A model generated the notes under the pieces. The model did no database searches. It worked only from the letters and a program-made list of their open reading frames with translations, and had not been told where the DNA came from. Of a stretch of DNA of 64,000 nucleotides, positions 1-64,000 are shown piece by piece. The translations under genes were made by a program, and so were the position numbers. The stretch comes from Tridacna crocea (Eukaryota; Mollusca; Bivalvia; Cardiida; Cardiidae). The stretch covers positions 30,565,361-30,629,360 of the forward strand of contig OX031064.1 of NCBI GenBank assembly GCA_943736015.1, in the 5' to 3' direction. Every line of letters begins with the position of its first letter. The stretch's first letter is position 1.

Positions 1-37
1 TCCTCCAAAAAACTTTTTTTTTTGACTTAACATAATT

Positions 38-160
38 AAAAGCATTTGCAGATTACCTAGTCATTGTAGCTAAAGAGATGAGTTCTGTCTTAAAGTTTAA
101 AACGACAGAAAATCATTGTGAGAAAAGGAGAAAATCCCAATCACATTTTTTTTACCACCT
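38..160 (-). mobile_element. T229 MITE, degenerate 5' fragment
   Basis: The 'agcatttgcag' segment and one arm of the hairpin (gagaaaaggagaaaat) are present in the minus orientation, but the second arm and the right terminus are missing. Boundaries are approximate. Confidence 0.5.
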
Positions 161-176
161 TCTTCTTCAAGGTCAT

Positions 177-300
177 TTAACCTTTAGGCTGCTAAGCTGA
201 CTCACTGACCTTTTGCAGACAGTGAAGATCAAGGTCAGACTGCAAAGAACGTGCAGTCTCCCAAAAACATCCTTCAACACAGCAAAATTTGGGTATTTAC
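177..300 (+). mobile_element. T211 TTAA element, left part
   Basis: Begins TTAACCTTTAGGCTGC and runs through the family core 'ctgaccttttgcagacagtg' and 'gatcaaggtcagactgca'. The right terminus seen in the full copy at 32469-32679 is absent, so this copy is truncated. Confidence 0.55.
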
Positions 301-371
301 TATAGGTTTGAGAGTTTGTGCTTGTTCTTTAGGAGGGAAAGGATTAAAACTCAGACTTGTGCAGTCATGGA

Positions 372-588
372 TTAACCCTTTACCAAACAATCCACGGTTG
401 CAACATCCTTGAGAAAGCTTTTTGAAAACATTGTGGGAAAAGGAGAAAATGCTGGTAACCAGCATTTTCTCCTTTTTTCAAAATGTTTTCTAGTCTATCA
501 AGGACAAATTCCAACCTTTTTACTACTTTTGTGGTCTGCAAAAATTTTAGGCCTTGCTAAAATTTTGTTGTAATGGTAAAGAGTTAAT
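372..588 (+). mobile_element. T229 hairpin MITE (reference description)
   Basis: Layout of the family, plus orientation: TTAA; left terminus CCCTTTACCA; a conserved 'gaccctgagaaagaagcc' stretch; a palindrome of about 65 nt (arm 'aaaacattgtgggaaaagga', centre gctggtaaccagc); then 'tcagtcacatttattttgtc', 'gtctgcaaatgctttcaatt', 'ggacaagtctaaaattttg'; right terminus TGGTAAAGAG; TTAA. This copy has intact TTAA at both ends (372-375, 585-588). Coding potential is nil. The TTAA ends and CCC start match piggyBac-type non-autonomous elements by established knowledge of that superfamily; the assignment is inference because no transposase is in the window. Confidence 0.85.
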
Positions 589-786
589 CCTTGCAGTGCA
601 ACGTTAGTGAAATAGACATTCTTCATAAACATAAAAGTTGAAGATATTTCAAATTTCAAACATTTTTGGGGGTCAGAATATCTGAAAAAGGAGCAGACAG
701 GAGTAGACCCAGGATCAGACTGCAGGTTTTCTCAACGAAGTGCACATCAGCGATTAAATAATTCAAATCTCAATAGCATAATATGG

Positions 787-1015
787 TTAACTCATTACCA
801 AACAACAATATAGCAGGCTTGTCCAAATTGAAAGCATTTGAAGACGACAAAATGAAAGTGACTGAAAATTTGAAATTAGTTTTGTGAAGGGTAGGAAATG
901 ATGTGGAAAAAGAAGAAAATGCTGGTTACCAGCATTTTATCCTTTTCCCACAATGTTTTCAAAAGGCTTCTTATCCAGGGGCGTCAAAAGTAGGGATTGT
1001 ATGGTAATGGGTTAA
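787..1015 (-). mobile_element. T229 MITE, full length 229 bp
   Basis: TTAA at both ends. Termini are of the ATTACC type on both sides (CTCATTACCA and TGGTAATGGG), so the two inverted repeats carry the same variant. Left hairpin arm has two changes (gtggaaaaagaag). Confidence 0.9.
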
Positions 1016-1111
1016 ATACTCGGAAATGACTACACTACCATGAAATTATACACACAGTGAAGTCAGATAAAAGTCAGATAATATAATTATACAGTCAAAT
1101 TATGTAACACT

Positions 1112-1334
1112 TTAACCCATTATCACACAATCCCTACTTTTAATGACCCTGAGAAACTTTAGAAAACATTGTGGGAAAAGGAGAAAATGCTGGTAACCAG
1201 CATTTTCTCCTTTTCCTACAATATTTTCTACCCTTGACAAAACAATTTCAAATTTTCAGTCACTATTACTTTGTCGTCTGCAAATGCTTTTGATTTGGAT
1301 AAACCTAAAATTTTGTCGTTTGGTCATGAGTTAA
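1112..1334 (+). mobile_element. T229 MITE, first of a three-copy chain
   Basis: Starts TTAACCCATTATCACACAA and ends with TTAA at 1331-1334, which is also the start of the next copy. Hairpin intact with GGTAACC centre. Confidence 0.9.
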
Positions 1335-1566
1335 TCCATTATCACACAACAAAATATTACAACCATCAAACTTGAAGGAATTCCCAGACGCCAATTTCAG
1401 CCTGGCTGAAAAAATGAAAGTTGCCTTTAATTGAGTAGAAAATATATTGTGGGAAAAGGAGAAAATGCTGGTATTTAACCAGCATTTTCTCCTTTTCCCA
1501 CAATGTTTTCAAAAGGCTTCTTCTAAAAAGTTCCTTGAAAGTTGACATTTTGCAGTAAAGAATTAA
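1331..1566 (-). mobile_element. T229 MITE, second of a chain, opposite orientation
   Basis: Shares its left TTAA with the copy before and its right TTAA (1563-1566) with the copy after. The palindrome centre is widened to ggtatttaacc, the only copy with this loop that I noticed. Confidence 0.85.
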
Positions 1567-1774
1567 ATCTTTACCACACAGTCCTGACTTTTAAAGACAC
1601 TGGGGAAGAAGTCTTTTGAAAACATTGTGGGTAACCAGCATTTTCTCCTTTTCCCACAATGTTTTCTGCTCTATCAAGGAAAGACTTAGGCATTTTTTAT
1701 CACTTGTAATTTGTCGTCTGCAGTTGCTATCAATTTGGACCAGCCAAAATGTTGTTGTTTGGTAATAAATAATC
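1563..1774 (+). mobile_element. T229 MITE, third of a chain, left hairpin arm deleted
   Basis: Left terminus TTAAATCTTTACCACACAG. The left arm is cut short (cattgtgggtaaccagc), so only the right arm of the palindrome survives. The right TTAA has decayed to AATA. Confidence 0.8.
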
Positions 1775-1960
1775 TTTTACCCAATGACAACATTTTTTAT
1801 TTCTCCACAATGAAAGCATTTTGCGTACAGCAAGTTATGAGAGACTAAAAACATGGATTCAGTTTTTGAAAGGAGAGATTGTGTGAAAAGGAGGATTGAC
1901 TTGTTATAAGCATTTTTTTGCTATTTTCAATTATTTCCAAAAGCATATCATATAATGGTT
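1775..1960 (-). mobile_element. Probable decayed T229
   Basis: Words such as 'tttacccaatgacaac', 'gaaagcattttgcg' and 'gtgtgaaaaggag' appear in family order but with many changes. Weakly supported. Confidence 0.35.
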
Positions 1961-2410
1961 GTTTATATACCCCCCAATACGCTGGAAATACGCGTGTAAT
2001 ATGCATGGGATAAGTTGGCTGTATGCTCAGAACACGTTAGGCATAAGTTGAGTATGTTAGACTGTCGTTAAAACTACCATTATAGCATTAGCCATTCATT
2101 AGAAACACGTCAGACACACGTTCATTATACTGTCCTCTAACGCTAGGTTTCCTGACCCATTCAATTTCAACGTATGAGAAGCGTACTCGACATATGAGTA
2201 ACATGCTTTCAGCGTACCTCTAGCATGTTTAGCGTATGAGGAAAGTATGATAAACGTAAAATTTATACGTCAGCATAAGCTGACAATTTTTGTGCATGTT
2301 CAAAAAATGTTTTGGCCATCAACGTACATAAGTGTACACCGACGCACCCAGCCGTACTAGAAACGTATTCCAGCGTAGTCCTAGCGTGTTTCAGCGTATG
2401 CCCAAAAAAT
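1961..2410. repeat. Region dense in AGCGTA/ACGTATG words
   Basis: Short words around 'cagcgta', 'acgtatgag', 'acacgt' recur on both strands at irregular spacing (for example near 2169, 2185, 2211, 2231, 2359, 2371, 2393). There is no clean period. It resembles a decayed satellite or a subterminal block of a larger element whose ends I could not find. Confidence 0.4.
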
Positions 2411-2565
2411 GTCCATTACATTCCTCATACACTGGCTCTACATGCTAGAGTGTGACAGCGCCTTTAATGATATTTGGTACCAAAACAGACAATCGCTGGA
2501 TTCCATGAATGGCATTTCACTGCCATACTGTCACAAAAGACGGCTAAATTTGATTAAAGCTTTGT

Positions 2566-3345
2566 CAATTCCTTTACTTTTCACCAGAAAACAAGATTTC
2601 AGACTGGTATAAAACTGAAAGCATTTGAAGACAATAAATTAAAGGTGGGTATTTAGAATTTTCACATCACACCAAATTGAAAAATATATATATCATTGAA
2701 ATTTATATGAAAAAGCAATTCAAATCATCAATAATTAAGAATCATAAAATTACAAAAAAAATGTTTTTGATGGTATTCCCTTAAAAGGCTACGTAGCCTC
2801 TTAAGCTATTTTTAGATTTCGCGCCAAAAATCAATAAAGCATTGTGGGAATGTCCAGTGACTGGCACATGACTAATGTTTAAATTCCATTACATAACAAA
2901 CATGTAATATTTATTTTCCATAGTGTCTTCTTCGGACGGATGTTTGAAACTTTGTCTGTATTTTCCTATGTTTAAATGAGATAATTGATAATCTAAAAAT
3001 AGAATGTGTCTCCCGTTGGTGTCAACCTGGTCCGTAATAAATCTCTAGTTTCTCTTGTTATCGAATGGTTTTCGAGTACTGGAGACTTTTATGAACGCAA
3101 ATTTTAAGGCTTTGGGAGTTTAAGGATGATTTTTTTTCATTTTTGTAAAATTTTCATCCCAAAATCTGAAGGGCCACCTTTAAGTGTTGCTCAAAGGATG
3201 AATAACTGTTAGAGGATAGAAAACATTTTGGTGGAAAAAGAAAAAGCTGGTTACCAATTATTTTTTCTCTTTCTTGCAAATTTTTTTTAAAAGCTGTTTT
3301 CCTGACGATTGTTAAAACTACTTGGTGAAAAGATAAAGCTAAAGA
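2566..3345 (-). mobile_element. T229 MITE split by a T545 element
   Basis: The left piece (to 2642) reads 'gactggtataaaactgaaag' and 'catttgaagacaataaa'; the right piece (from 3180) continues with 'gtgttgctcaaaggatg', a hairpin (ctggttaccaa centre) and the distal part. Removing the T545 copy and one TTAA restores family order. Outer ends are decayed. Confidence 0.7.
2639..3183 (+). mobile_element. T545 TTAA element (reference description)
   Basis: A 545-bp repeat bounded by TTAA (2639-2642 and 3180-3183), with short inverted ends AGGTGG/CCACCT. Inside, in order: 'gtatttagaattttcacatc', an AT-rich block with 'aatcatcaataattaagaat', a small palindrome aggctacgtagcct, 'gcgccaaaaatcaataaagc', 'agtgactggcacatgac', 'aatgtgtctcccgttggtg', and 'cccaaaatctgaagggccac'. 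No ORF. It is inserted in a T229 at TTAA. Superfamily uncertain: TTAA targeting suggests piggyBac-like, but the AGGTGG start is not the usual CC-start. Confidence 0.8.
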
Positions 3346-3408
3346 ATGTAATTGATCCTGATGGTGTGCGGCATCCGAGATACTAAAGATTACTGGTAGA
3401 TCGTCACA

Positions 3409-3600: not shown

Positions 3601-3615
3601 AGATCAGATTGTCAC

Positions 3616-9348: not shown

Positions 9349-9356
9349 ATTAATGT

Positions 9357-14757: not shown

Positions 14758-14984
14758 TTAACCCTTTACCACAATAATATATAGACCTATTCAAATCCAA
14801 AGAATTTGTAGGTGTAACTTAACAGTGGCTCAAATGATGCAATTTTTTTCTTTGTTAGAGTAGAGAACTTTGTGGAAAAAGGAGAAAATGCTAGTCACCA
14901 GCATTTTCTCCTTTTCCCACAAAGTTTTCCAGAGGCCTCTCCCTCAGGGTCGTTAAAAGTCATTGTTGTGTTTAAGCGGGTTAA
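14758..14984 (-). mobile_element. T229 MITE with rearranged stem base pair
   Basis: The stem base reads 'aactttgtgg' against 'ccacaaagtt', where the usual copy has 'aacattgtgg' and 'ccacaatgtt': both partners have changed. Right TTAA abuts the next fragment. Confidence 0.88.
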
Positions 14985-15134
14985 GTGATGATTTCTGTCT
15001 TTGATACTGTAGAAAACTTTGTGGGAAAAGGAGAAAATGCTGGTAATCAGCATTTTCTCCTTTTCCCACAAGGTTTTCTATAGGCTTCTCTTTCCGGATC
15101 GTTAAAAGTCAGGATTGTGTGCTATCGTGCTAAA
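14985..15134 (-). mobile_element. T229 MITE, left end missing
   Basis: Hairpin 'aactttgtggg' against 'cccacaaggtt' leaves a T-G wobble at the base pair that is T-A in the neighbouring copy. Distal end 'attgtgtgctatcg' decayed. Confidence 0.75.
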
Positions 15135-23889: not shown

Positions 23890-24438
23890 TTAAAGGTGGG
23901 TATTTAGAATTTTTACATCTCACCAAATTAAAAAATAAATATATCACTGAAATTCATATGAAAAAATAATACAAATCATCAATAATTAAGATTCATAAAA
24001 TTACAAAAAAGAAGTTTTTTTGATGGTGTTCCCTTAAACGGCTATGTAGCCTATTAGGGTATTTTTAGATTTAGCGCCAAAAATCAATAAAGCATTTTGA
24101 AAATGTCAAGTGACTGGCACATGACTCATAATGCTTAAATTCCATTACATAATGAACATGTAATAATAATTTATCATAATGTTTTCTTTGGACGCTATGG
24201 TTGAGACTTTGTCTGTGAATTCCTGTATGTAAATGAGCAAATTGGTCATCTAAAAATAGAATGTGTCTCCCGTCGGCGTCAATCTGGACTGTACTAAATC
24301 TCTAATTTCTCGTGTTGTCGGACAGTTTTTGAATACTGGGCTTTTATGAATGAAAATTAAAAGGTTTTGGGGGTATCAGGATGATATTTTTGAATTTTTG
24401 TAATATTTTCGTCCCAAAATCTGAAGGGCCGCCTTTAA
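23890..24438 (+). mobile_element. T545 element, 549 bp
   Basis: TTAA at 23890-23893 and 24435-24438; one change in the right end (GCCGCCT for GCCACCT). Its right TTAA is also the first TTAA of a T229. Confidence 0.85.
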
Positions 24439-25427: not shown

Positions 25428-26134
25428 ACCGAACAATCACATCTTTAAAGGTGGCCCTTCAGATTTTGGGATGAAAATTTTACAAAAATGCAAAAAAATC
25501 ATCCTTATACTCCCATAGCCTTTAATTTGCATTCATAAAACTCCAGTAGTCGAAAACCATCTGATAACACGAGAAATTAGAGATTTATCACAGACCAGGT
25601 TGACACCAACGGGACACACATTCTATTTTTAGATTATCAATTTTCTCATCTAAATACAGGAAAACACAGACGAAGTTTCAAACATCTGTCCAAAGAAGAC
25701 ATTATGGAAAATTATTATTACATGTTTGTTATGCAATGGAATTTAAGCGTTATTAGTCACGTGCCAGTCACTTGACATTCCCACAATGCTTTATTGATTT
25801 TTGGCGCGAAATCTAAAAATAGCTCAGGAGGCTACATAGCCTTTAAAGGGAATACCATCAAAAAAAATTTTTTTTGTAATTTTATGATTCTTAATTATTG
25901 ATGATTTGTATTGTTTTTTCAAATAAATTTCAATGATATATATATTTTTTAATATGGTGTGATGTGAAAATTCTAAATACCCACCTTTAAACCCTTCAAA
26001 AATGAAGCTGATAAAAACATTGTGGAAAACAGGAATAATGATGGAAATCGGCATCTTCTCCTTTCCAACAGTTTTCTACAATCTAAAAAAAGATTAAGAG
26101 CAGTTTAAAATTCTGTTGTGTGGGAAAGACTTAA
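25428..26134 (+). mobile_element. T229 MITE split by T545
   Basis: Left piece TTAAACATTTACCGAACAAT to 25448; right piece from 25987 'acccttcaaaaatgaag', hairpin remnant, and 'gttgtgtgggaaagac' with TTAA at 26131-26134. The break is at the family's internal TTAA that follows 'gactt'. Confidence 0.75.
25445..25990 (-). mobile_element. T545 element, 546 bp
   Basis: TTAA on both sides; ends AGGTGGCCCTTCAG and TACCCACCT. Inserted in a T229. Confidence 0.88.
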
Positions 26135-26162: not shown

Positions 26163-26391
26163 TTAACTCTTTACCACACGACAAAATCTTAGACTGGTTC
26201 AAATTGAAAGCATTTGCAGACGACAAAATAAAGGTGACTGAAAAATTGAAATTTGTCCTGAGAAGGGTAGAAAACACTGTGGGAAAAGGAGAAAATGCTG
26301 GTTACCAGCATTTTCTCCTTTTCCTACAGTGTTTTCAAAAGGCTTCTGTCTCAGGGGCGTCAAAAGTAGGGATTGTGTGGTAATGGGTTAA
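26163..26391 (-). mobile_element. T229 MITE, 229 bp, mixed termini
   Basis: Left end is TTTACC type, right end ATTACC type. Stem base changed on both sides to 'cactgtg' / 'cagtg', one mismatch next to it (tcctac). Confidence 0.9.
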
Positions 26392-27329: not shown

Positions 27330-27557
27330 TTAACTCTTCACCAAATAACAAAATTTTAGACTGGTCCAAATTGAAAGCATTTGCAGACGACAAAATGATG
27401 GTGACTGAAAAATTGAAATTTGTTCTGAAAGGGTAGAAAACACTGTGGGAAAAGGAGAAAATGCTGGTTACCAGCATTTACTCCTTTTCCCACAGTGTTT
27501 TCAAAAGGGTTCTTTCTCAGGGGCGTCAAAAGTAGGGATTGTGTGGTAATGGGTTAA
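27330..27557 (-). mobile_element. T229 MITE, first of a chain, paired stem change
   Basis: Stem base 'aacactgtggg' pairs with 'cccacagtgtt'. Right TTAA (27554-27557) is shared with the next copy. Confidence 0.9.
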
Positions 27558-28012
27558 CTCTTTACCAAGCGACAAAATTTTAGGCTGGTCCAAATTGAAA
27601 GCATTTGCAGACATTAACTCATTACCAAATGACAATATTTTAAGTTTGTCCAAATCGAAAGCATAAATTTTACAGACGACAAAATAAAAGTGACTGAAAA
27701 TTAAACATCTGTTTTTTGAACAGTAGAAAACTTTGTAGGAAAACGAGAAAATGCTGATTACCAGCATTTTCTCTTTTTTCCACAATGTTTGCTAAAGGCT
27801 TCTTCCTCAGGGTCATCAAAAGGAGTGATTGAGTGGTAATGGGTTAAAATAAAAGTCAATGAAATTTTGAAATTTGTATGGAAGAGGAGAGAAAACATTG
27901 TGGGAAAAGGAGAAAATGCTGGATACCATCATTTTCTCCTTTTCCCGCAATGTTTTCAAAAGGCTTCTTTCAAAGGTTCGTCAAAAGTGGGCATTGTGTG
28001 GTAAAGGGTTAA
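27554..28012 (-). mobile_element. T229 MITE (outer) carrying a nested T229
   Basis: Left part ends 'agcatttgcagacattaa' (27617); after the inner copy it resumes 'aataaaagtcaatgaaattt', has a hairpin (right arm with cccgcaatg) and ends TGGTAAAGGGTTAA (28009-28012). Confidence 0.88.
27614..27847 (-). mobile_element. T229 MITE (inner), intact TTAA on both sides
   Basis: TTAA at 27614-27617 and 27844-27847; ATTACC type at both ends. Same orientation as the host. Carries an 8-base insertion 'aaattttac' inside the conserved segment. Confidence 0.9.
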
Positions 28013-28691: not shown

Positions 28692-29233
28692 TTAAAGGTG
28701 GGTATTTAGAATTTTTACATCTTACCAAATTGAAAAATATATATATCACTGAAATTCATATGAAAAAATAATACAAATCATCAATAATTAAGATTCATAA
28801 AATTACAAAAAAAAAAAAATTTTATGGTATTCCCTTAAAGCGTAGCCTCTTAAGCTATTTTTAGATTTTGCGCCAAAAATCAATAAAGCATTGTGGGAAT
28901 GTCAAGTGACTGGCACATGACTCATAACCCTTAAATTCCCTATCATAACAAACATGTAATGATTATTTTCCATAATGTCTTCTTCGGACAAAATGTTTGA
29001 AGCTTCTTCTGTGCATTCCTGTAAGTAAATGAGCGAATTGATCATCTAAAAATAGAATGTGTCTCCCGTTGGTGTCAACCTGGGCCGTAGTAAATCTCTA
29101 ATTTCTCGTGTTGTTGGACGGTTTTTCGACTTAGTACTGGGGTTTTATGAATGAAAATTAAAAGGCTTTGGGAGTATCAGGATGATTTTGCACTTTTGTA
29201 AAATCGTCCCAAAATCTGAAGGGCCACCTTTAA
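28692..29233 (+). mobile_element. T545 element, 542 bp
   Basis: TTAA at 28692-28695 and 29230-29233, complete AGGTGG/CCACCT ends. Flanks are not T229. Confidence 0.88.
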
Positions 29234-33789: not shown

Positions 33790-34040
33790 CGAAAACTTTC
33801 AGACTGAAGGTACACCTATCCATGCGTTTCTAGAGTTTCTTATACCAGTACTTTCCACAATTTTCTTTCCAAGCCGCTGGCTGCTTTCCCAGATGATCAT
33901 CATCATCGAAACAATGGTAAGTAGCGGGAGAGGAATGAATCCTGTCACAGGGACTATCATCAATTCTCAGAAAGAAATTGGCCGAGCCAGGGGTTGGAGC
34001 CAGCCTACATGCTACCAAATGAGCTACTGGGGCTAAGATA
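33790..34040 (-). mobile_element. SINE-1, minus strand, with tRNA-like head
   Basis: Minus strand starts 'gccccagtagctcatttggt', has B-box-like 'ggctccaacccctgg', then 'attgatgatagtccctgtga', 'cagccagcggcttggaaaga' and 'catggataggtgtacc'. A tail could not be delimited. Confidence 0.7.
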
Positions 34041-43449: not shown

Positions 43450-43949
43450 AGGTGGCTCTTCAGATTTTCGGACGAAAATTTTACAAAAATACAGAAAGGA
43501 TTATCCTCATACTCCAAAAGCTTTTAAATTTTTATTTATAAAACCCTGTAGTCGAAAGCCATCCAACAACAAGAGAAAATAGAAATTTACCAAGGCCAAA
43601 GTCGACACTGTACTATTTTTACATAGCAACTTGCTCATTTAATGGTGTCCGAAGAAGACACTATGGAAAATAATTACATGTTTGTTATGTTATGGAATTT
43701 AAGTGTCATTAGTCACGTGCCAGTCACTTGACATTCCCGCAATGCTTTTTTGATTTCTGGAGCGAAATCTAAAAAAATCTAAAAGGCTACGTAGCCTTTT
43801 AAGGGAACACCATCAAAACAATATTTTTTGGTAAAATTTTATGATTTTATATTATTGATGATTTGTATTGTTTTTTTTCATATAGATTTCAGTGATATAT
43901 ATATATTTAATTTGGAGAGATGTGAAAAAATCTATATACCTACCTTTAA
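43446..43949 (-). mobile_element. T545 element, 504 bp
   Basis: TTAA + AGGTGGCTCTTCAG at the left and TACCTACCT + TTAA at the right. Somewhat shortened around the 'aatgtgtctcccg' segment. Confidence 0.8.
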
Positions 43950-44154: not shown

Positions 44155-44990
44155 AACAAAATGAGGGCCATGAAGGCCCTGTATCACTTCACTGGCTTTT
44201 TAACCATTTACCATACAAATTGAAATGCTCATGACCTTGAAAAGGAGGGTTTTCAAAAACAATGAACACTGTCAGGCAATACAAGCAGGTCTATTCATTG
44301 GCATAAAAGGTAAAATTCTTGGGGAAAAAAACTGAATAATAGAAACCTTACTTTGAATTTAATATTCCACTCATGTGCACACAGCTTTTAGCATCAAAAT
44401 GAATCACTCTCCCTGAAAACAGAATATTTTCTACAAAAAAAAAAATTAAATATCTAGCACCAATCATGTATCACTGCAGTTTGATATTCAGGGGAGGTAA
44501 ATATTAACAAACTTTATCCATTATAAGAAGTTATTTTCCCTTGATAAACGTTACAATTCAAATAACTATATATGGAAGCCCATGTTAAACTTGTGATCCC
44601 CGGAATGGAGCCAATTTTGACCCCAGGCCTATAACATGAAGAAACTTGATAAAGGTTCATTAGATAGTTACATGACAACTTCAGTAGCCCTGGGCCTTGT
44701 GGTTTCAGAGAAGAAGATTTTTAAAAATGTTATTTTTTTTTTAGTTTTGTTGCCATGGCAACCAGAGTTTTTGAAGGAATGAAATTCTTTCAAAAATTCT
44801 GAAGAGGACCGTGGCAGGATAATTTCTTTTAAGTTTCCTCAAATTTGGATGGGTAGTTTCAGAGAAGAAAATGTTTGAAATAAAAATTAATACACACACA
44901 CATGGAGGGGCAGATGAATGCAGGGATGGACGCATGACGGACACTGGGCAATGACATAAGCCCACTGGCCAAAGGCCAGCAAAGCTAACA
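44155..44990 (+). mobile_element. Long element D, copy with an embedded T229 left half
   Basis: Starts 'gagggccatgaaggccctgt' and 'atcacttcactggc', ends 'catgacggacactgg', 'acataagcccactggccaaa', 'ggccagcaaagc'. Near its start it holds 'aaccatttaccatacaaatt' and 'catgaccttgaaaaggaggg', a T229 left half. Later: 'gtagccctgggccttgtggt', 'ttcagagaagaagattttta', 'gttgccatggcaaccagag'. Confidence 0.7.
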
Positions 44991-45255: not shown

Positions 45256-45678
45256 AAACATTTAATTTGTTATGATATTTTCTAACTTTAAAGGTTCAGT
45301 CACACTATGATAAAGGATGAGTAACGGATCAAAAATCATTTTATCCATTTCTGTCCGTTTGTATCCCTTTTATGTCTGTTTCTTATCCGGTGGATCCGCT
45401 ACAAGTCTGGCAATGTCTGGTGATGTTTGTTCCTTCCTAGCATATTCAAATTTCCACAAAACAGAAGAGAGATATGCAATGCTGAGTGGGTTAATGGATT
45501 ATCACATACAAAGAGGGTTCTTTATCTCTGTTTCAGAAGAAACTGTTAAAATTCAACAAATTCTACTCCACAAGTTTATTATTTTACTGTAATTTTAGAT
45601 TTAGATCAAAATTTTATTAGCAATGGTGTGTTTCCAAAAAAAAGGAACAGATTGACATCAGGCAGCTGCGAATTTCAT
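45256..45678. other. No recognised feature
   Basis: A 91-codon ORF (45317-45592) with no family resemblance that I know. Confidence 0.4.
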
Positions 45679-46083
45679 TTAACCCTTTACCACACCATTC
45701 AGAGTTCTAAAAACCCTGAAGAAGAAAGCTTTTGAGAACATTGTAGGAAAAGAAGAAAAATGATGGTAACCAGCATTTTCTACTTTTCTCAAAATGTTTT
45801 CTACCCTCTCAAATTTGCTGCTGCAAATTTTGTTTACTCATTACCACATAACTCAAGAGTTCTAACAACCCTCAAAAAGAAAGTTTTTGAAAACATTGTG
45901 GAAAAGGAAGAAAATACTGATAACAAGCATTTTCTTCTTTTCACTCTCTGTTTTCTATCCTATCAAATTTGCAGCTGCAAATTTTGTTTATTCTTTACCA
46001 CACCACACAACCCAGATTTCTAACAACCCTGAAAAAGAAAGCTTTTGAAAACATTGTGGTAAAAGAAGAAAATACTGGTGTCC
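45679..46083 (+). repeat. Tandem triplication of a truncated T229 (units of about 155 bp)
   Basis: Units begin near 45679, 45832 and 45985, each with a left terminus (ctttaccacacc, cattaccacataac, ctttaccacaccac), 'taacaaccctgaaaaagaaa', and an 'aaaacattgtgg' arm. Units 1 and 2 end 'ctatcaaatttgc.gctgc' / 'aaattttgttta', where the next unit starts. Unit 3 is cut after the left arm. Confidence 0.8.
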
Positions 46084-47214: not shown

Positions 47215-48370
47215 AACAAGAGGGCCATGATGGCCCTGTATCGCTCCACTGGCTAATAAGTAAAAACACTACAAGCCAAACATTACAATATTTAGCCAAT
47301 TGGTTTCAAACTTGAGGACATAGATTTTTTTTCTATGAAATCCTACGAAAAATTTGTGACCCTCGGGCAAAGCCAATTTTGACCAAAAAGCTATAATTAC
47401 TTGAACCCTGGTAGAGGTCCACAGGATGAAGCCCCATACCAAATAATATAGGTCTAGAATGTGTGGTTATACACAAGATATTCTTGTGACCCCTGGTGTG
47501 GGGAAGAACTTGATCCCAAGGCTATACTTTGGGCCCTCCTGGCAGAGGCCCACTAGATAAAGCTACATGCAAAATTTGATAGCCCTAGGCCTTATGGCTA
47601 GGTAACAAGTAGATTTTTAAAAATTTCCCAATATGAGCCCATATAAAACTTGTGACCCCCCAGGACAGGGCCAAATTTAATCCCAGGGCTTTAATTTGGG
47701 CACCTTTGGTAGACAACCACTTGATAAAGCTAGATGCAAAAGTGAGTAGCCCTAGGCCTAATATGGCTTGGTACGAGAAGATTTTTAAAGTTTTCCCTAT
47801 ATAAAAAACTTGTGACCCCCAAGGCCATGCCAAATTTGACCCCTGGGCTATCCTTTGGGCACTCTTGGTAGGTACTCTTGGTAGACAATCACTTGATAAA
47901 GATACATGACACATTTGGTAGCACTAGGCCCTATGGCTAGGTACCGGGAGGATTTTAAAGTTTTCCCTATATAAGCCCATATAAAACTTGTGACCCCCAG
48001 GGCGGGGCCAATATTGACCCCAGGACTATTATTTGAAGGAACTTGGTAGAGGTCCACTAGATAAAGCTACATGCCAAATTTGGTAGCCCTAGGCCTTATG
48101 GTTTCAGAGAAGAAGATATAAAAAATTTTAAATATTTTTCAGTTTTCTTGCCATGACAACCAGAGTTTTTGCAGGAATAAAATTATTTCAAGAAATTCTG
48201 AAGAGGACCATGTCAGGATCATTTCTGTGAAGTTTCATCAAAATTGGATGAGTAGTTTCAGAGAAGAAGATGTTTGAAATAAAAGTTAATGGATGGACGG
48301 ACGGATGGACAGACGCACGACGGACACAGCGCCATGAAATAAGCCCGCTGGCCTTTGGCCAGTGGAGCTA
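47215..48370 (+). mobile_element. Long element D (reference), built of tandem units
   Basis: Left end 'acaagagggccatgatggcc' then 'cgctccactggc'; right end GGAC/GGAT-rich (48291-48320), 'gccatgaaataagcccgctg', 'gcctttggccagtggagcta'. 'gctccactggc' near the left and 'gccagtggagc' at the right are inverted copies. Between them five units of about 130-178 bp start around 'acttgtgacccc' (47340, 47480, 47650, 47808, 47986). The unit end 'agccctaggccttatgg' is shared. No coding gene; superfamily unknown. Confidence 0.75.
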
Positions 48371-49194
48371 AAAATTGAAAGCCAACACAAATAGCCCCCC
48401 TTACAATTACTTTTTATCATTTAAAATACTGTATTTGAAAGAATATGATGATTTTGCCATCTTTCAAGCACATGTCAAAGAACAGAGTGGTGTTACTGAA
48501 AAAGCACAAAAACCCATGACAAAGTAAATATCAAACTGACCTTATGTAATCAAAGACCATTTAACTGTTGTATTTAGCTTTGATAATGATTTACAGGTAA
48601 AAAGCCAACTTGTTTACATGCCACATAGAAAATGTAGGGACTAAATCCTCTTTTCCATCAACAGAAAAAATTATGATCTTCATGAAAGGAGAAAAAGCTA
48701 TCATCCATCTACATAACTTAGAAAAAGGAGGCTGGGTAACTTCACATACCTTGCAGCTAGTAACACTGGTATATGTGTAGGAAAAGAAATCAGTAGGATA
48801 TTCATACATAGAAAGAAGACTGACAAAAGAAGAAAAATTGATTCAGTAGTACAAGAAATGACCTATCTATAAGTTTATTTCAAAGTTCAAACAAGTTCCT
48901 GACTTTATTATGTTGTATTGATCTATTTTTCCCAATTCTGTCCTTTCCTCAAGAATCTTTTTTCCCTAATTTTGCCTTTTCTAAAAATTCTAAGATAAAG
49001 CCCTATGACTCTAGAAATTTGGCTCTAACTTGAGAGCTGCAGTTCAGAGGTCAATAACCATTGGGTTCTTAAGTCCAACAGTGGCCCATTTTGGTCAATA
49101 TGTTTTAGATATGAAGGTCTTTGAAATTTTCCCATATATAATTCTGTCTGAAGTAAGATAATTATGTGACCCCAGGAATGTTTTCTGAACTGTC
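48371..49194. other. No recognised feature
   Basis: ORFs up to 72 codons, none recognised. Confidence 0.4.
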
Positions 49195-50745
49195 CTTTTT
49201 TCAAAACAAAAGGACATGATGGTCCTATATCGCTCACCTGAGTACCAAGCAGTAAAGGTCTAAAATAAAGATAAATACCAAATATCAAGGTTCAACACCA
49301 AATGATAATGAAACAAGGTCACAATTTTACTTGGGACTTCAAAGCTCCGTTCTGGACAAGCAAGAAATATTGTAAAAAAATACTGTAAATACTCAAAATG
49401 TGCGCTAGGTAGAGTTACTGTTCTTGTGCACTGTACTCCATAATATTGCAACAAATATGCATACCAATTTTGAGGTCGTTCTGACTAAAGATGACAAAGT
49501 TATATTCCAGACAGGCATTAAATGCTGAAAAAAGGAACATTCAAAGGGAAATAACTCAAAGACAACACAAGGTAGAGTTACAATTCTTGTGCACTGCACT
49601 ACAAAATACTGCAACAAATATGCATACCAAATTTCAAGTCATTCCTACTAAAGATCACAAAGTTTTGCTCTGGACAAACAAGAATTTGCTATAAAAATGA
49701 AGGTCAAATGGGGAATAACTCAAAATTCCTACAAGGAAGAGTTATGATTTTTGTGCACTGCACCCCATAACTTTTCAACAATCATGCATATCAAATTTGA
49801 AGATGTTCAGAATGTAGATGATGAACTTATAGTCCGGACGAACCGAAAATACTGTAAAAATGATGATCAAAGAGAAATAATTCAGACAGTACCAGAGTTA
49901 TGGTGCACTCTGCATTATTGCAACAAACATAAATGCCAAGTTTCAAGTAAATCAGTTTGAAGATGACAAAGTTATGCTCCAGACTAAGAACTATTCTAAA
50001 GAACTTTCTATTCAAGGGCAAATAACTCCACTTGTTCTGGTCCGATTTCACCCATAATCGAAATAATCCGAGATATTATGGTCATATATATTGTTACCAA
50101 GTTTGGTGCTGACTGGTTGATAATTCTAGATGCGAGAGTATAAACAAAGTCATATATAGCAATTTTTCTCGTTCAAGGGCAAATAACTCCAGTCGTTCTA
50201 ATCTGATTAGACCCATAATTGAACTTATCCAAGATCTTATGGATTTATACATTTTGGCCAAGTTTAGTGCTGATTGGTTGAAAATTGTAGATGCTAGAGT
50301 GAAACAAATGCTAATATAGCAATTTTTCTAATTCAAGACCAAATAACTCCAGGTATTCTGGTCCAATTAGATCCATAATCAAACTCATCCAAGATCTTAT
50401 GGTTACATAAATTTTGGCCAAGTTTAGTGCTGATTGGTAGATACTAGAGATATATTTGTAGATACTAGAGCGTAAACAAAGTCAAATATAGCAATTTTTC
50501 TAATTCATGGGCAAATAACTCCAGATGTTCTGGTCCAATTACACCCATAATTGCATTCATCCGAGATCTTATGGTCCAATATCATATAATTTGACAAAAT
50601 TTGGTGCTGATTGGTTAATATTTGTAGATGCTAGAGTTAAACAAAGAAATGTGAATGGATGATGGATGGATGGACGGACAGACAGACGGTGAGTGATCAC
50701 AATAGCTCACTCTGAGCACTTCATGCTAAATTGAGCTAAAAATGG
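49195..50745 (+). mobile_element. Long element D, variant with two tandem blocks
   Basis: Starts 'aaggacatgatggtcctata' and 'tcgctcacctgag', ends with GGAC/GACA repeats (50661-50692) and 'ctaaattgagctaaaaatgg'. Block 1 (about 49320-49990) repeats 'agagttacaattcttgtgca' at 155-165-bp spacing, four times. Block 2 (about 50010-50640) repeats 'gggcaaataactccag' at 159, 159 and 174 bp, each with 'gatcttatgg' and 'tagtgctgattggttga'. Confidence 0.72.
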
Positions 50746-51574
50746 TAAATCATACTACATATAGATTTTTTATGCAGGAGCTCTTGGTTTTTTCTCAGAC
50801 AAGAGAAAACTTAGAAATGTTCCAAATAATGCCATGGAAAACATCTGACACTGATGGACAGTTTGCCTTCCTTGATAATAAATTGTTGGTTGGTCAGCTG
50901 TATTAGAGTTTAATGCCATTTTAACAGCTAGGATGATTTCACTGTGGTCAATGCACCTTTGCATAATGTTTCCTGTCTTCTCACACCTGTGCTGACTCAA
51001 CTTTTGACTTACTTTTAAAATTCAAACTTCTGGCAGCAAGTAAAGCTTGTACCAATCTTACAATAACAGTAATCTTCACAGTACTTTACATCCTTTTCAA
51101 TTGTATGATTCATATTAAAATGCATTTGAAGATCTGCATTTTTTTTCCCCACTACTATGGCTTTAACAAACAAACAAGATATAGAAGCGTGCCAAACTGA
51201 AAGAATTCACATAATATGTGACCCGTCATGCAAAAAGGGACAATCTGAGAGTTCCATAGATTAATTAGGCGAAATAGATCATACAGGTCAGTTTAAGCTG
51301 ATATTTCAAAAATGATTGTTTAGAAAGGTAGAATGACCACTTTTCATACAGAAAACATCATAAAACCGTCACAATCTGTTATATTGGTCCAAATTAGTAG
51401 CTGGCTTAAAAAATAAATGTTAAAACTTAGTTGCCAGGTTGCTCTGTCCATTGTTTACTTTTTGCATAGTTTTAGAATTTGTTTTTCTGGCAGCCAGTGA
51501 CACTAAAATGGACTGTTATAATATTGTTATCTGTACAATAGTTTTCATACTTAAAAACAGTACAATTAAAATTT
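50746..51574. other. No recognised feature
   Basis: One 76-codon ORF on the minus strand, not recognised. Confidence 0.4.
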
Positions 51575-52910: not shown

Positions 52911-53715
52911 ACAAACAAGAGGGCCATGGTGGCCCTGTATCACTCCACTGGCTTTTTAACCCTTTACCACACAAACTGAAGTGTTCATGACCCTGAAAAA
53001 GAGGGCCTTCTAAAACAATGTAAGGCAATACAAGCAGGTTAATTCATTGGCATGAAAGGTTAAGTTCTTTGGGAAATAACTGTATTATAGAAACCTTACA
53101 ATGAATTTAATTTCACTCATGTGAGCGTAAATATTAGCACCAAAATGAATCACTCTTCTGAAAACAGAACATTTTCAGTCAAATAACTTAATATCTAGCA
53201 GCAATCATATCACTGCAGTTTTGACAATCAAGGGAGGTAAATAGTTACAAACTTTATCCTATATATAAAAAGTTATTTCCCATGATTAATGTTTAATTGA
53301 AGTGACTATATTTTGAAGCCCATGTTAAACTTGTGATCTCTTGAATGGAGTCAATTTTGACCCCAGGCCTATAATATCAAGAAACTAGTTAAAGATCCAT
53401 TAAATAAAGCTACATACCAAATTCAATAGCCCTGGGCCTTGTGGTTTCAGAGAAGAAGATTTTTAAAAATGTTATTTTTTTTTTTCAGTTTTGTTGCCAT
53501 GAGTTTTTGAAGGAATCAAATTCCTTCATGTAATTCTGAAGAGGACCATAGCAGGATCATTTCTGTGAAGTTTTATCAAATTTGGATGGGTAGTTTCAGA
53601 GAAGATGTTTGATGGGTAGTTTCAGAGAAGAAGATGTTTGAAATAAAAGTTAACGCATGCATGCACAAACAGACGGACGGACGGAGGATACAGGGCCATG
53701 ACATAAGACTGCAAA
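52911..53715 (+). mobile_element. Long element D, copy with embedded T229 left half
   Basis: 'acaagagggccatggtggcc', 'cactccactggctttttaac', then a T229 left half (ccctttaccacacaaactga, catgaccctgaaaaagaggg) at the same place as in the copy at 44155. Ends in 'acggacggacggagg' and 'gccatgacataag', the last bases missing. A 32-bp stretch 'gatgggtagtttcagagaag' is duplicated near 53586-53630. Confidence 0.72.
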
Positions 53716-54591: not shown

Positions 54592-54820
54592 TTAACTCTT
54601 TACCACACAAGAAAATTTTAGACTGGTCCAAGTTGAAAGCATTTGCAGACGACAAAATAAAGGTGACTGAAAAATTGAAATTTGTTCTGAGAAGGGTAGA
54701 AAACACTGTGGGAAAAGGAGAAAATGCTGGTTACCAGCACTTTCTCCTTTTCCCACAGTGTTTTCAAAAGGCTTCTTTCTCAGGGGCGTCAAAAGTAGGG
54801 ATTGTGTGGTAATGGGTTAA
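54592..54820 (-). mobile_element. T229 MITE, 229 bp, paired stem change, mixed ends
   Basis: Left end TTTACC type, right end ATTACC type. Stem base 'aacactgtggg' with 'cccacagtgtt'. Shares TTAA (54817-54820) with the next copy. Confidence 0.92.
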
Positions 54821-55048
54821 TCAACACTTTACCAAACAATCTCTGGTTTTTACGACCATAGATAGAAGCCTTTAGAAAACATTGTGGGAAAAGGAGAAAA
54901 TGCTGGTAACCAGCATTTTCTCCTTTTCCCACAATGTTTTCTCCCCTGCTAGAAACAAATTTCAATTTTTTAGTTACGTCTATTTTGTCGTCTGAAAGTG
55001 CTTTCAACTTGGACAAGTCTGAAATTTTGTCGTTTGGTAAATGGTTAA
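54817..55048 (+). mobile_element. T229 MITE, opposite orientation to its neighbour
   Basis: 'ttaatcaacactttaccaaa' at the left; TTTGGTAAATGGTTAA at the right. Perfect 65-nt palindrome at 54875-54943 region with GGTAACC centre. Confidence 0.9.
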
Positions 55049-57721: not shown

Positions 57722-58115
57722 AGGTTGCCCTTCAGATTTTGGGAGGAAAATTTTACAAAAATACAAAAAAATCATCTTTGTACTCCAAAAGCCTTATAAT
57801 CTTCATTCATAAGACCCCAGTAGCTGAAAACCATCAGACAACAAGAGAAATTAGAGATTTACTACAGCTCAGGTCGACACCTTGGGGAAACACGGTCTAT
57901 TTTTACATAAGCAACTTGCTCATTGACATACTGGAAATATACAGAAGCTTCAAACATACCGTCAGAAGAAGTCATTATGGAAAATAATTACATGTTGTTA
58001 TGTTATGGAATTTAAGCGTCAATAGTCACGTGCCAGTCACTTAACATTCCCACAGTGCTTTTTTACTTTTGTTGGGAAATCTAAAAATAGTTTAAAAGGC
58101 TATGTAGCCTTTTAA
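57718..58115 (-). mobile_element. T545 element, truncated by a T229
   Basis: 'aggttgcccttcagattttg' to 'aggctatgtagcc'; its internal TTAA there (58112-58115) is the start of a T229. The remaining part of T545 is missing. Confidence 0.8.
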
Positions 58116-59989: not shown

Positions 59990-60072
59990 GTTTATGTTCA
60001 ACGTTATTTTATTCAACTGGCTTACATCTTTATAGTGTCACCTGACAGATCCCGCAAACCATTACCTCAGCC

Positions 60073-60300: not shown

Positions 60301-60375
60301 AAAGCCAGTCAATGTGCCATAAAAACAACATTGAATTTCATTAATTTATTACATCTCATTGGCAAATCCTATCAT

Positions 60376-60586: not shown

Positions 60587-60639
60587 GCCACATTTGATTT
60601 CTCATCTGTAAGTGCTTCCAATACAGTACGAAGCTTTGT

Positions 60640-61035
60640 GCCAAGCCTGGCAGCACAGTGGTAGCATGCAGGACTTGATAACAGGAGGTCACTTGTTCAA
60701 TCCTTGGCTAAGCCAATGTCTTTCCAAGAATTGATGATAGTCAGTGCGACTGTCCTCAATCCTCTCTCACTGCTGACAATTCTTTCAACGACAGTTATGT
60801 GGAAATGCAGCCATTGGTTTGGAAAGAATATTGGGTGACTGAGGTATTGGTTAACCCTTCACCACACTACGACAACTTTTAGCAACCATGGGAAGTGAGC
60901 GTTTGGAAAACATTGTGGGAACAGGAGAAAATCTTGGCAACTAGCATGAAAAGCATGGACAGATATGCTGGTCACTGCAATATAAATGGAATAATGTTGA
61001 AAAATGGCATTTAATCCTAGGCATGCAATCAGTCA
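60640..61035 (+). mobile_element. SINE-1, plus strand, carrying a T229 piece
   Basis: Head 'ctggcagcacagtggtagca' with B-box-like 'gtcacttgttcaatcc'; body 'gtctttccaagaattgatga', 'tgcagccattggtttggaaa', 'tgactgaggtattgg'; after the T229 piece 'gaaaagcatggacagatatg', 'ataatgttgaaaaatggcat', tail 'gcaatcagtcaatc'. Confidence 0.7.
60852..60947 (+). mobile_element. T229 left half inside SINE-1
   Basis: TTAACCCTTCACCACACTAC to the hairpin centre 'cttggcaactagc'; the right half is missing. Confidence 0.7.
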
Positions 61036-61157
61036 ATCATTGATTCTGTCAAAATTTCCAATATGAGCCAAAACTTTGTTGCCTAGTGCAGGGTTAATCC
61101 TTGACCATGTAATCTGGTGTTTTAGGACCAAGATGTAGATATCTTTCAATTTAGTTC

Positions 61158-61398
61158 AACACTTTTCAACACAATCACGACTTTTAACGACCCTGAGTAA
61201 AAAGCCTTTTGAAAACATTGTGGGAAAAGGAGAAAATGCTGGCAACCAGCATTTTCTCCTTTTCCCACAATGTTTTTTACCTTTCTCAAACCAAAAGTCA
61301 ATTTTTCAGTCACACCTGTTTTGTTGTTTGCAAAATATTTAATGCTTTCAGTTTGGACCAGTCTGTATTTTTGTCGTTTGGTAAATACCGGTAGTTAA
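61158..61398 (+). mobile_element. T229 MITE
   Basis: Left end 'cacttttcaacacaatcacg'; palindrome perfect except the centre (ggcaacc); right TTAA at 61395-61398 shared with the next. An older left-end scrap (ttaatccttgaccatgtaat) is at 61074. Confidence 0.87.
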
Positions 61399-61545
61399 CT
61401 CTTTAGCAAACAAGAAAATGTTAGACATGCCAAAATTGAAAGCACTAAATTTTGCAGATGACACAATAAATGCAACTCAAAGGTTGGAACTTGACTGAAG
61501 AAGAGCAGAAAACATTGTGGAAACTAGAACCTGTTTTTTCTTTAA
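61395..61545 (-). mobile_element. T229 left part, chained
   Basis: TTAACTCTTTAGCAAACAAG, 'tgccaaaattgaaagcac', 'gcagaaaacattgtggaaac'; stops at the hairpin. Confidence 0.7.
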
Positions 61546-61639
61546 AAAAAAAAATAGACGTCTCCCCCGTTTTTGGTATCAAAAAGACCGATTTGTGACC
61601 AAGGCATTTTCTAGCTCAATATAAAAGGTGGTTTTACTG

Positions 61640-62400
61640 TAACAGTTTTCGAATTATAGAGCTGGCACAAAATTGTACATTTATTGAGTGACAAACAGTA
61701 ATCAAAGGGAAATAACTCTAGAAATACACAAGCAAGAGTTACAATTCTTGTGCATGACACTTTGTCTCACAAAGCTTTACAAATGTGTGACATTTTATCA
61801 AAATATTTGAAAAGGTTAAGTAATAGAGTGGACACATTTTGTGATTGAAAATAATCTAAGGGAAATAACTAAAATAAAAAACCAAGCCAGGGTTATAGTT
61901 CTTGTGCATGACACTTTGTCTAATGGTGCTTTACAAATGTGTAAAATTTTATCAATATATTTTAACTTTTTACCACACAATCCTGACTTTTAACGACTCT
62001 GAGAAAGAGGTCTGTTGAAAACATAAGGGGAAAGGAGAAAATGTTGGTAACCAGCATTTTCTCCTTTATGCACAATATTTTCTACCCTATCAAAGTCAGA
62101 AATTATCATATTAGCAAGATTTGATTTGTTGGCCACAGATGCTTTGAATTTGGTCCAGTCCAAAAATATGCCATTTGGTAAATAGTTAAAAGGTTTTCGA
62201 TTGAGAGAGCAGACACGGTTTGTGATAGAAAATAATCAAAGAGAAATAACAAAAATATACAAGCCAGAGTTACGTTTCTTGTACACGACACTTTGTCTCA
62301 TAGTGTTATGCAAATGTTTCATCAAAATATCTTAAAAGATTTTGGAGTTATAGAGCTGACACGATTTGTGACAGTTAGACAGATGCACTGGGAAAAACAA
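61640..62400. repeat. Tandem block, three units of about 175 bp, related to element D block 1
   Basis: 'gggaaataactctagaaata', 'agagttacaattcttgtgca', 'gacactttgtctcacaaagc', 'caaatgtgtgacattttatc' recur (61705, 61860, 62240 starts for 'gaaataac'). Unit 2 is split by a T229. Confidence 0.75.
61962..62189 (+). mobile_element. T229 MITE inserted in a tandem unit
   Basis: TTAA at 61962-61965 and 62186-62189. Left arm damaged (cataaggggaaaggag). The repeat unit reads through 'atcaatatat' | T229 | 'aaggttttcgattgagag'. Confidence 0.9.
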
Positions 62401-62461
62401 TATGTCTCAAAAACCTGATGGGGGAGACAAGGAATTGTTTGGTAATGGGTTAAACATATTT

Positions 62462-62585
62462 ACTTCACACTGATTGAGAAACAAGTTCTTGCAACTTATA
62501 CTAATTTCAATCACTATCTATTAATTCTGCTTCCTGTAAACTACACAACCACTTACGCCGAATATGTGGGCCAATGTAGTCCCAA
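62462..62585 (-). mobile_element. SINE-2, 3' part, minus strand
   Basis: 'actgattgagaaacaagttc', 'attctgcttcctgtaaacta', 'atatgtgggccaatg'. The tRNA-like head is missing. A T229 right-end scrap (gaattgtttggtaatgggtt) precedes it at 62434. Confidence 0.6.
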
Positions 62586-62599
62586 AGTGGATGTTTCAA

Positions 62600-62787
62600 A
62601 ATGCCAACCACCAAGTTGAGTTGCAGTCGATACCATACACGTTTTGAAACCAGGGGGTCACTGGTTCGAAAGAAATCCATAGCTTGACAGTTTTTTGTCC
62701 AAAAATTGATGATGGATAGTCATTACGATAGCATTCATTCCTCTGTAACGGCTGATCACCATTTTGACAACGGCAACACATTTCCAA
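62600..62787 (+). mobile_element. SINE-1, plus strand
   Basis: B-box-like 'gtcactggttcgaaagaaat', then 'gtccaaaaattgatgatgga', 'gtcattacgatagcattcat', 'ctgtaacggctgatcac'. Confidence 0.6.
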
Positions 62788-63219
62788 TTAATGATCCTGT
62801 AGAAAAGGTCTTTTGAAAGCATAGTGAGAAACTTGCAGAAAATGCTGGTATAGAACATTATCTCTTATTTTTCTCTATTGTTTTCGACTCTTCCCAAGTT
62901 GGATTTCTACTTTTCAGACACAACTATTTTGTCATCTGCAAAATCTGTTAACTCTTTCCCACACAACAAAAAATGTAAGCTTGTCCAAATTGAAAACACC
63001 TGCAGGCAATATTTAAATTTGAGTGAAAAACTGAAATTTGCTTTGGGAAGGGTAGAAAACATGGTGAAAGAAGGAGAAAATGCTGGTTACCAGCATTTTC
63101 TCTTTTTTTTCTAGCATGTTTTCAAAAGGCTTCTTTCTCGAAATCGTTAAAAGCAGGATTGTGTGGTAAAGGGGTTAATTTTTACATGTCTAGAATTTTG
63201 TTGTGTAGTAAAGGATTAA
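62788..63219 (+). mobile_element. T229 MITE (outer) carrying a nested T229
   Basis: Starts within the element at 'ttaatgatcctgtagaaaag', continues to 'gtcatctgcaaaatctgtta'; after the inner copy resumes 'tttttacatgtctagaattt' and ends 'gtgtagtaaaggattaa'. Confidence 0.82.
62948..63178 (-). mobile_element. T229 MITE (inner), TTAA on both sides, opposite to host
   Basis: TTAACTCTTTCCCACACAAC at the left, TGGTAAAGGGGTTAA at the right. Right arm altered (tctttttttt). Confidence 0.9.
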
Positions 63220-63444
63220 GGGATTTTAAGCCTGCCAAGCAAGAAATTTTTGGCATGAAGCTGTCTGCAAGTCCCTGCCATAAAATTCTGCCGACTGATT
63301 ATGTTTAACTGAAAGCTTTTGATATAGATTTACAGTAATAACTCGCAGGTGATCCTTAAATCAAGATAATGCCTTTTAAATAGCGTTCCTTAATTCACAC
63401 ATAAGGGTGGATATTAAGTTTTTCACAAAGAAATACATTGCAGT

Positions 63445-63950
63445 CTCACTTAATATGCATTTGCAGACGACAAATTAGATGGGGCTTAAAAGAAGTAATT
63501 TTCTTTATGAATATCTGAAAGAGTAGAAATGTTAGTTAAATGGTGTTTAACCCTGTTTTCAACATCCAGGCATATCATAGTGGCAAGTGCACATCTCCAT
63601 GCTTTCCTGAAGTCAATTTTACCAGTAATCTGTGCAATATTGTTTCCAAGCCACTGGCTGCTTTCCTACATAAATATTGCAGAAACAATGGTCAGCGGTG
63701 GGAAAAGAGTGAATCCTGTCGCAATGACTTTCATCAATCCTCGGAAAGAATTGGCCAAGCCAGGGATCGAACCTATGACCGCCCCCTCCCCCCATTCTAA
63801 AGTCCTGTACACTACTGACTAGGCTACCTGGGCTTGGCTGAAAGAGTAGAAAAAGGGTGTGGGAAAAGAAGAAAATGTTTATAAAGAGGATTTCCTCCTT
63901 TTTGCACAATACTCCTGACTTTTTTTCCCCACAATATTCTGAAAAATATA
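63445..63950 (-). mobile_element. T229 MITE split by SINE-1
   Basis: Left: 'catttgcagacgacaaatta' to 'ctgaaagagtagaaa' (63529). Right: same 15 bases at 63838-63852, then 'agggtgtgggaaaagaagaa' and a decayed right arm. Confidence 0.75.
63530..63837 (-). mobile_element. SINE-1 with 15-bp target duplication, 308 bp
   Basis: Flanked by identical CTGAAAGAGTAGAAA (63515-63529; 63838-63852). Minus strand: head 'agcccaggtagcctagtcag' with A-box; B-box 'ggttcgatccctgg'; body 'ccagtggcttggaaacaata'; 3' end 'gttgaaaacagggttaaaca'. The exact long duplication is the known mark of LINE-dependent retroposition. Best copy to define the family. Confidence 0.85.
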
Positions 63951-64000
63951 GCATACCTTAAGGTTTGATGTTACTCTTAGATTGAGATTATCCCATTACT

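Follow-up and report, generated by a model that had tools for sequence, protein, structure and literature searches.

Mobile elements that combine TTAA target sites or palindromic structure with small size are known from several systems. Transposons of the piggyBac/piggyBat type encode a DDE_Tnp_1_7 transposase, duplicate TTAA on insertion, most commonly end in CCC (PMC10813416), and carry palindromes in their ends that are bound by the cysteine-rich domains of the transposase (PMC11707139). The CMITE elements of Acropora corals are linked to piggyBac, and in 2010 their authors speculated that a conserved internal region plays a part in transposition (PMC2872659). TTAA is also the target site of the Xenopus T2-MITE/Kolobok elements (PMC6004289), and REPINs are miniature mobile palindromes of bacteria (PMC3116915). 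How miniature inverted-repeat transposable elements (MITEs) rise to very high copy number without coding is an open question. Here, a 229-bp hairpin element termed P is described from a 64,000-nucleotide stretch of the Tridacna crocea genome (C9:30565361-30629360, the window), within an assembly of 1,048,827,098 bases in 31 contigs. P shares TTAA duplication and CCC-type ends with piggyBac transposons, and carries a single, internal palindrome. We regard P as probably a non-autonomous piggyBac-type transposon of miniature size, moved by a transposase of the type encoded by two families named B and E below, and think it probable that a copy can give rise to new ones only with a symmetric palindrome.

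Anatomy of element P

P was modelled as an nhmmer profile of 229 columns, built from 19 well-preserved seed copies picked by eye. At E<=1e-3 this model gives 207 matches in the window, covering 19,710 bp and including many antisense echoes of the palindrome, and no match in the reversed window used as a control. Free of overlap, there are 116 pieces (59 plus, 57 minus) making up 30.4% of the window bases. One clear nested case and one likely split copy place the number of insertions slightly below 116, near the 90-100 copies noted when the letters of the window alone were inspected (the sequence-only reading). The whole model is spanned by 39 pieces of 195-241 bp, with a median identity to the consensus of 0.87 (range 0.68-0.93). 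TTAA stands at both ends in 28 of these full copies; 13 of the 39 are 229 bp long and 12 combine exactly this length with both TTAA, bearing out an earlier count of at least a dozen.

From left to right, P consists of TTAA, a short end repeat, an 89-column left arm, a 67-bp palindrome, a 37-column right arm, the end repeat and TTAA. The palindrome is exact in the consensus, with 33 pairs around one base (columns 108-174), and the end repeat reads mostly CTC (left) or CCC (right), followed by WTTACC. Most copies are bounded by TTAA, as had been proposed: on the left it is found at 37 of 56 ends and on the right at 52 of 71, compared with 0.88% of window positions at which a TTAA starts. The CCC-type ends reported earlier are upheld, with the qualification that CCC itself prevails on the right side, in 40 of the 52 ends with TTAA, and CTC on the left (24/37, with CCC in 5/37).

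An open frame runs along the P consensus, and coding constraint on it was considered and rejected, with 304 synonymous, 852 non-synonymous and 63 stop changes in the 39 full copies against 288, 868 and 72 expected; the frame is free of in-frame stops in just two of them. P is thus short, homogeneous in size and without coding constraint, as befits a MITE and unlike piggyBac transposons.

Conservation of the palindrome along source lineages

In the 39 full copies, mismatch to the consensus is 0.075 in the palindrome, compared with 0.177 and 0.185 in the arms and 0.174 and 0.146 in the end repeats. The ratio of palindrome to arm divergence is 0.71-0.89 where arm divergence is below 0.12, 0.43 where it is 0.3-0.4 and 0.54 where it is 0.4-0.6. 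A tree was built from the arms and ends of 46 of the 52 near-full window copies (score >120). On its internal branches the palindrome changed 0.15 times per site, against 1.34 for the left arm, 1.41 for the right arm and 1.36 for the end repeats, while the corresponding tip values are 2.60 versus 3.82, 4.49 and 3.96 (Fisher p 1.9e-10). When the tree is made from one arm and tested on the other, p is 1.2e-6 and 1.5e-9. A second set comprised 64 copies outside the window, after omission of 14 of 63 loci (L001, which is the window, and duplicate B/E loci) and of one near-identical copy among 65. Here the palindrome and left arm show 0.33 versus 1.61 changes per site on internal branches and 2.97 versus 5.02 on tips (p 3.3e-6 with the whole tree, 3.5e-5 with the left-arm tree). 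Resident copies decay, somewhat less in the core, and the lineages that make new copies keep the palindrome.

Constraint on the core could also reflect an RNA hairpin, either miRNA- or siRNA-like, or escape from host silencing. The 229-nt P strand of copy 26163..26391 folds far better than shuffles (z -10.4, DNA parameters), and microRNAs derived from MITEs have been reported (PMC1784062). However, Rfam at the gathering threshold matches nothing in the window and the constraint is strongest along source lineages, and this explanation appears quite improbable to us. The idea that the palindrome is a crossover point shuffling the arms was not supported, as distances in the left arm track those in the right (Mantel 0.35 and 0.45, p 0.003).

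Covariation of the arms and the sister family Q

Covariation within the palindrome was assessed in those 200 of 280 distinct rows with 55 or more core columns. They contain 112 complementary double changes, compared with 42.6 in shuffles (SD, standard deviation, 5.9; maximum 59). True partners have a co-change ratio of 1.96, as against 1.24-1.62 when partners are slid and 1.39 across all non-partners. On the tree, partners changed together 24 times against 13.6 expected (p 0.0065), a modest effect; 11 of the co-changes are complementary, two on internal branches and nine on tips. In genome-wide counts of 57-mers, the consensus at both positions of one pair is found at 34,027 places, the single changes T115C and A167G at 1,615 and 1,940, and the double change at 9,352, against 92 if the two were independent (own arithmetic).

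A sister family, Q, extends the comparison. Its 229-bp consensus, with TTAA and the ends CCCTTTACTCCATAG and CCCTTTACCCCATAAGG, rests on four copies (L004, L021, L041 and L044), which vary singly and two of which (L041 and L044) have no intact second TTAA end; L002, which looks intermediate, was left out. Q and P have an ungapped identity of 0.85 in the core, falling to 0.53 and 0.42 in the arms. With the central five bases set aside, the two differ at four positions per palindrome arm, and 4/4 are partners, all complementary, the chance figure for this compensation being computed after that exclusion. Cores with both arms of the Q type occur at 25,624 places genome-wide and mixed P/Q cores at 21; the mixed pattern requires one arm to carry two changes and the other to carry none, which leaves one-step intermediates uncounted. 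As the P/P reference, the 39-mer core count given below is used in place of a pattern of that length. We tentatively suggest, as a serious but uncertain possibility, that the palindrome is an independent structural part kept by P and Q and that its two-fold symmetry, not its letters, is required for transposition or copy gain. In both families the element is also 229 bp long and the core lies at position 56 although the arms differ, a hint that length or spacing is constrained.

The main rival explanation is mutational, in that template switching or gene conversion between the arms of source copies would pass each change on to the other arm and keep the palindrome symmetric. Complementary doubles exceed shuffles in ordinary copies too (51 versus 27.7, SD 5.0, n=178, pair 115/167 omitted), a moderate excess as arm-to-arm copying would give, and the partner co-changes with their complementary cases mainly on tips fit the same process. 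The centre base (column 141 in 110 copies: T 93, A 8, C 3, G 2, gaps 4) changes more often from T to A than to C or G, as palindrome inversion would give, and the A excess may mark inverted palindromes. On the other hand, residents hold many unmatched arm changes, with 990 broken pairs against 105 compensated doubles in 186 cores, and copying alone leaves unexplained why source lineages change so little in the palindrome. We consider copying between arms somewhat unlikely as the whole account; selection for core symmetry during mobilisation is the leading reading, and both may act.

Insertion at TTAA and candidate partner transposons

Direct comparisons of filled and empty sites come from a piggyBac family, A, of which locus L033 holds a 229-bp P copy and L031 a 227-bp one, while L015 is uninterrupted. 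Flanks joined across P align to L015 over 120/122 and 116/117 bases (L033 and L031, in that order). L015 reads a single TTAA where L031 has its insertion, and TTTA, one base off, where L033 has its own. As L031 and L033 are ~96-99% identical to other compared family A copies, the P insertions in them are fairly recent. TTAA target duplication is therefore seen in the 28 full copies and in two empty-site comparisons. Together with the CCC-type right ends and the presence in the genome of piggyBac transposons with similar ends, these sites agree with the earlier proposal of a non-autonomous piggyBac-type element. Kolobok transposons likewise duplicate TTAA, but their ends are 5'-RR and YY-3' (PMC9587614), whereas those of P are mostly CYC and match piggyBac elements, and a Kolobok-type origin is very improbable.

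The transposase profile PF13843 has 118 genome matches, and 30 loci were compared. Two families among them are putative autonomous piggyBac transposons that share ends with P, judging from their sequences. Family B is 7.2 kb long, with copies on C5 and C9 that are 99.9% identical and differ in their flanks. Its left end, TTAA-CCCATTACCGTTCAATAACGCCTTTTGACGCCCCT, and right end, TTAA-CTCATTACCAC, show the same CCC/CTC asymmetry as P. The left 400 bases have 11 genome matches (9 at >=91% identity), the right 357 bases also 11 (7 at >=93%); 8 of 9 left ends start at TTAA, in eight different flanks, one (L055) is altered, and the C9 copy is without TTAA on the right. The open reading frame (ORF) of B matches PF13843 (2.7e-88), piggyBat 9c0f (9.3e-40) and piggyBac 6x67 (3.3e-36), and its three catalytic aspartates, the residues being named in PMC11707139, align by eye with those of piggyBat. 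Upstream lies an acidic ORF of 123 aa that matches no Pfam family and may represent the first exon. Family E, 6.4 kb long, shares 70.5% identity with B across 1,862 aligned bases and has a transposase frame open over 508 codons. It starts with TTAA-CTCTTTCCCACACAATCCCGACTTTTTACGACCCC, followed by further copies of a ~35-bp unit, of which P keeps one at its right end.

The right ends of 33 full P copies match on average 24.8 of the 35 bases after TTAA in the E left end and 23.0 in the B left end, whereas 747 background TTAA sites match about 9, with a best value of 22 for B. At the opposite end, the likeness does not extend beyond the end repeat. The search for a piggyBac transposase sharing about 20 terminal bases, which the sequence-only reading had recommended, has thus led to B and E, with a long match on one side only. 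About three P pieces lie in each of B and E, within one shared stretch some 420-1090 bp inward of the right end (L027:3392-4027; joined L049+L024+L050, 6491-7156), and are either shared old insertions or a native feature.

Another piggyBac family (of the A, C, L011 or L020 type) that tolerates many CCC-starting ends might instead be the main mobiliser. All four have TTAA-CCC ends, and family A (L013-L019, L023, L031 and L033; 2.77 kb, terminal inverted repeat CCCTTTATATAC) has compared pairs that are 95.9-99.9% identical, with no stops in the matched transposase domain of L013-L019 and L023. However, the ends of these families differ from P and match its right ends at <=15.8/35 on average versus 23.0-24.8 for B/E, and such a mobiliser seems improbable.

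Genome-wide spread and local density

The inner 39-bp core of P occurs exactly at 152,335 places genome-wide (76,371 + 75,964), with no place for the backwards pattern used as a control, and the P matches listed lie on 17 contigs. Because the core is this widespread, P is not a local satellite, and the genome comparison proposed earlier shows a unit that is not confined to the locus. Partial P units do stand in tandem at 14842-15120 and 45662-46077 (~149 and ~154 bp), as a satellite or segmentally duplicated block would show, but the genome-wide counts refute confinement and we give that explanation practically no weight.

For exact cores the window is average (10, where the genome count predicts 9.3). 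Six stretches of 8 kb, placed at round coordinates, contain 25 P pieces over 4,096 of 48,000 bp (8.5%), with 7 full copies and 4 exact cores against 7.0 expected, and 26 transposase loci (106,416 bases) contain 3 exact cores against 15.5. P density is therefore uneven, and the six sampled stretches may be somewhat poor. Coverage by all pieces is 3.6 times as high in the window as in these stretches, all eight 8-kb window bins exceed all six of them (p 0.0003), and two 4-kb stretches ~60 kb either side are also P-rich (8 pieces over 1,328 bp; 9 over 1,666 bp). The window is thus rich in older or broken P pieces. A density far above expectation, as claimed in the sequence-only reading, is upheld for all pieces but not for exact cores; strong local amplification is not supported, given the genome-wide core counts, and a region tolerant of insertion is possible for the older copies. 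Scaled from the six stretches, the genome would hold roughly 0.55 million pieces and 89 Mb of P (standard error 21), and by pieces per exact core, in rough arithmetic, 0.95 to 1.8 million.

Many of the best genome matches extend across two copies in inverted arrangement, from which came the idea of a preference for inserting beside existing copies. It was rejected: four window junctions share one TTAA (by eye), about what random TTAA choice would give on a rough reckoning. An exact 25-base P core pattern had no match in collections of viral contigs and genome contigs, a plasmid search with window 49000-51500 returned none, and a literature search with P core and peptide strings found no paper, though the family may be catalogued in Repbase or Dfam.

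Listed copies and other repeats

Individual copies are listed in Table 1, together with a family, X, of ~520-bp TTAA-flanked repeats with ends AGGTGG...CCACCT, some of which lie inside or adjoin P. Their purine ends suggest a Kolobok-type element. A ~600-bp repeat at 44200-44878 and 52956-53612 starts with a P right end (about columns 163-229), has a common upstream flank, and probably represents a larger repeat with a piece of P in it. Tandem repeats other than P, with 160-178-bp units, occupy 47515-48101, 49407-49802 and 50005-50646.

Table 1. Copies of P and family X in the window, by position
Feature	Positions	Strand	Remarks
Full P, 229 bp, both TTAA	787..1015	+
Row of three P (-,+,-)	1112..1766	.	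TTAA shared at 1331-1334 and 1563-1566
Family X	2650-3179
Full P, 229 bp, both TTAA	5374..5602	+	CCCTTTCCC ends
Full P, 229 bp, both TTAA	22509..22737	+
Family X	23901-24430
Family X	25449-25979
Typical full P, 229 bp, both TTAA	26163..26391	+	model score 257.8
Central 67-bp palindrome of copy 26163..26391	26270..26336	+	columns 108-174; from model and palindrome pairing
Nested insertion	27554..28012	+	P 27614-27847 within another copy (27554-27612 + 27846-28012); the clear one of two nesting candidates
Family X	28703-29229
Full P, 229 bp, both TTAA	29586..29814	-
Full P, 229 bp, both TTAA	32244..32472	-
Full P, 229 bp, both TTAA	33103..33331	+
Full P, 229 bp, both TTAA	35139..35367	+
Full P, 229 bp, both TTAA	35692..35920	+
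Full P, 229 bp, both TTAA	43221..43449	+
Family X	43450-43938
Full P, 229 bp, both TTAA	54592..54820	+	top score, 258.6
Full-length P, 228 bp	54821..55048	-	abuts copy 54592..54820; right end TTGA not TTAA (element orientation)
Family X	57727-58111
Full P, 229 bp, both TTAA	59761..59989	-

Proposed mechanism

P inserts at TTAA, has ends similar to those of B and E, coexists with open B/E transposase frames and is spread across the genome; its actual mobilisation by a B/E-type transposase is suggested by the likeness of their ends. Such an enzyme would bind the P ends, where TTAA is followed by an end repeat close to CYCWTTACCA and one side has a further ~35-bp stretch ending CTTTT(A/G/T)ACG(A/C)CCC, and would then excise the element and insert it at a TTAA, which is duplicated. 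The central palindrome, as a symmetric structure, would let copies become sources, so that amplifying lineages keep their arms matched. Most likely it would act as a two-fold-symmetric binding site, or as a cruciform or hairpin, in transposition or repair.

Several observations weigh against this account. A tree from the palindrome itself gives p 0.40 for the window copies and the right-arm tree of the second set p 0.09, and the palindrome has fewer changes on the tips as well, so decay in resident copies is uneven. The T115C/A167G pair counts as a single case, since it probably goes back to one founding event with later amplification; in Q, the central five bases of the consensus include one change without a matching partner, and the centre base differs too. 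To these are added the limit on the mixed-core count and the excess of complementary doubles in ordinary copies, both given above. As to the partner, the best background TTAA site scored 27/35 against the E left end, the long terminal match is on one side only (P left ends against B/E right ends average 9.6 and 10.1 of 14), and a closer partner may exist among the PF13843 matches, given that 30 of the 118 were compared.

If symmetry is indeed what transposition or copy gain requires, single-arm variants should persist as dead copies but almost never found subfamilies, while double-arm variants should found them, and a cruciform, a hairpin or a dimeric protein on the palindrome would be a step in the multiplication of the element. 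The counts suggest that one internal structure separates amplifying from non-amplifying lineages, and the genome offers at least 152,335 natural exact cores as well as candidate mobilisers for the study of this question.

Comparison with known systems

The piggyBac palindrome is 19 bp long and lies in the ends, whereas that of P is 67 bp long. Xenopus T2-MITE/Kolobok elements share TTAA with P but have AGGRR ends (PMC6004289) and are closer to family X of the window. REPINs, for which compensatory hairpin changes are reported to be common, are bacterial and linked to tyrosine (RAYT) transposases (PMC3116915); by analogy, and with a different enzyme, they come closest among the cases found to a mobile hairpin with compensatory changes.

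Where the core is better conserved than the ends, the closest published case found is CMITE, which resembles P in its TTAA, CCC-type ends, piggyBac link and tandem arrays, and in which, across families, the internal region is more conserved than the ends (PMC2872659), as it is in P. CMITE elements are unlike P and Q in being ~100 bp long with another internal sequence, a 60-bp CMITE sequence differing from P by eye (unaligned), and the available parts of that paper report neither a perfect 67-bp palindrome nor compensated arm changes. With defined single-arm and double-arm variants, P makes the idea of the CMITE authors testable.

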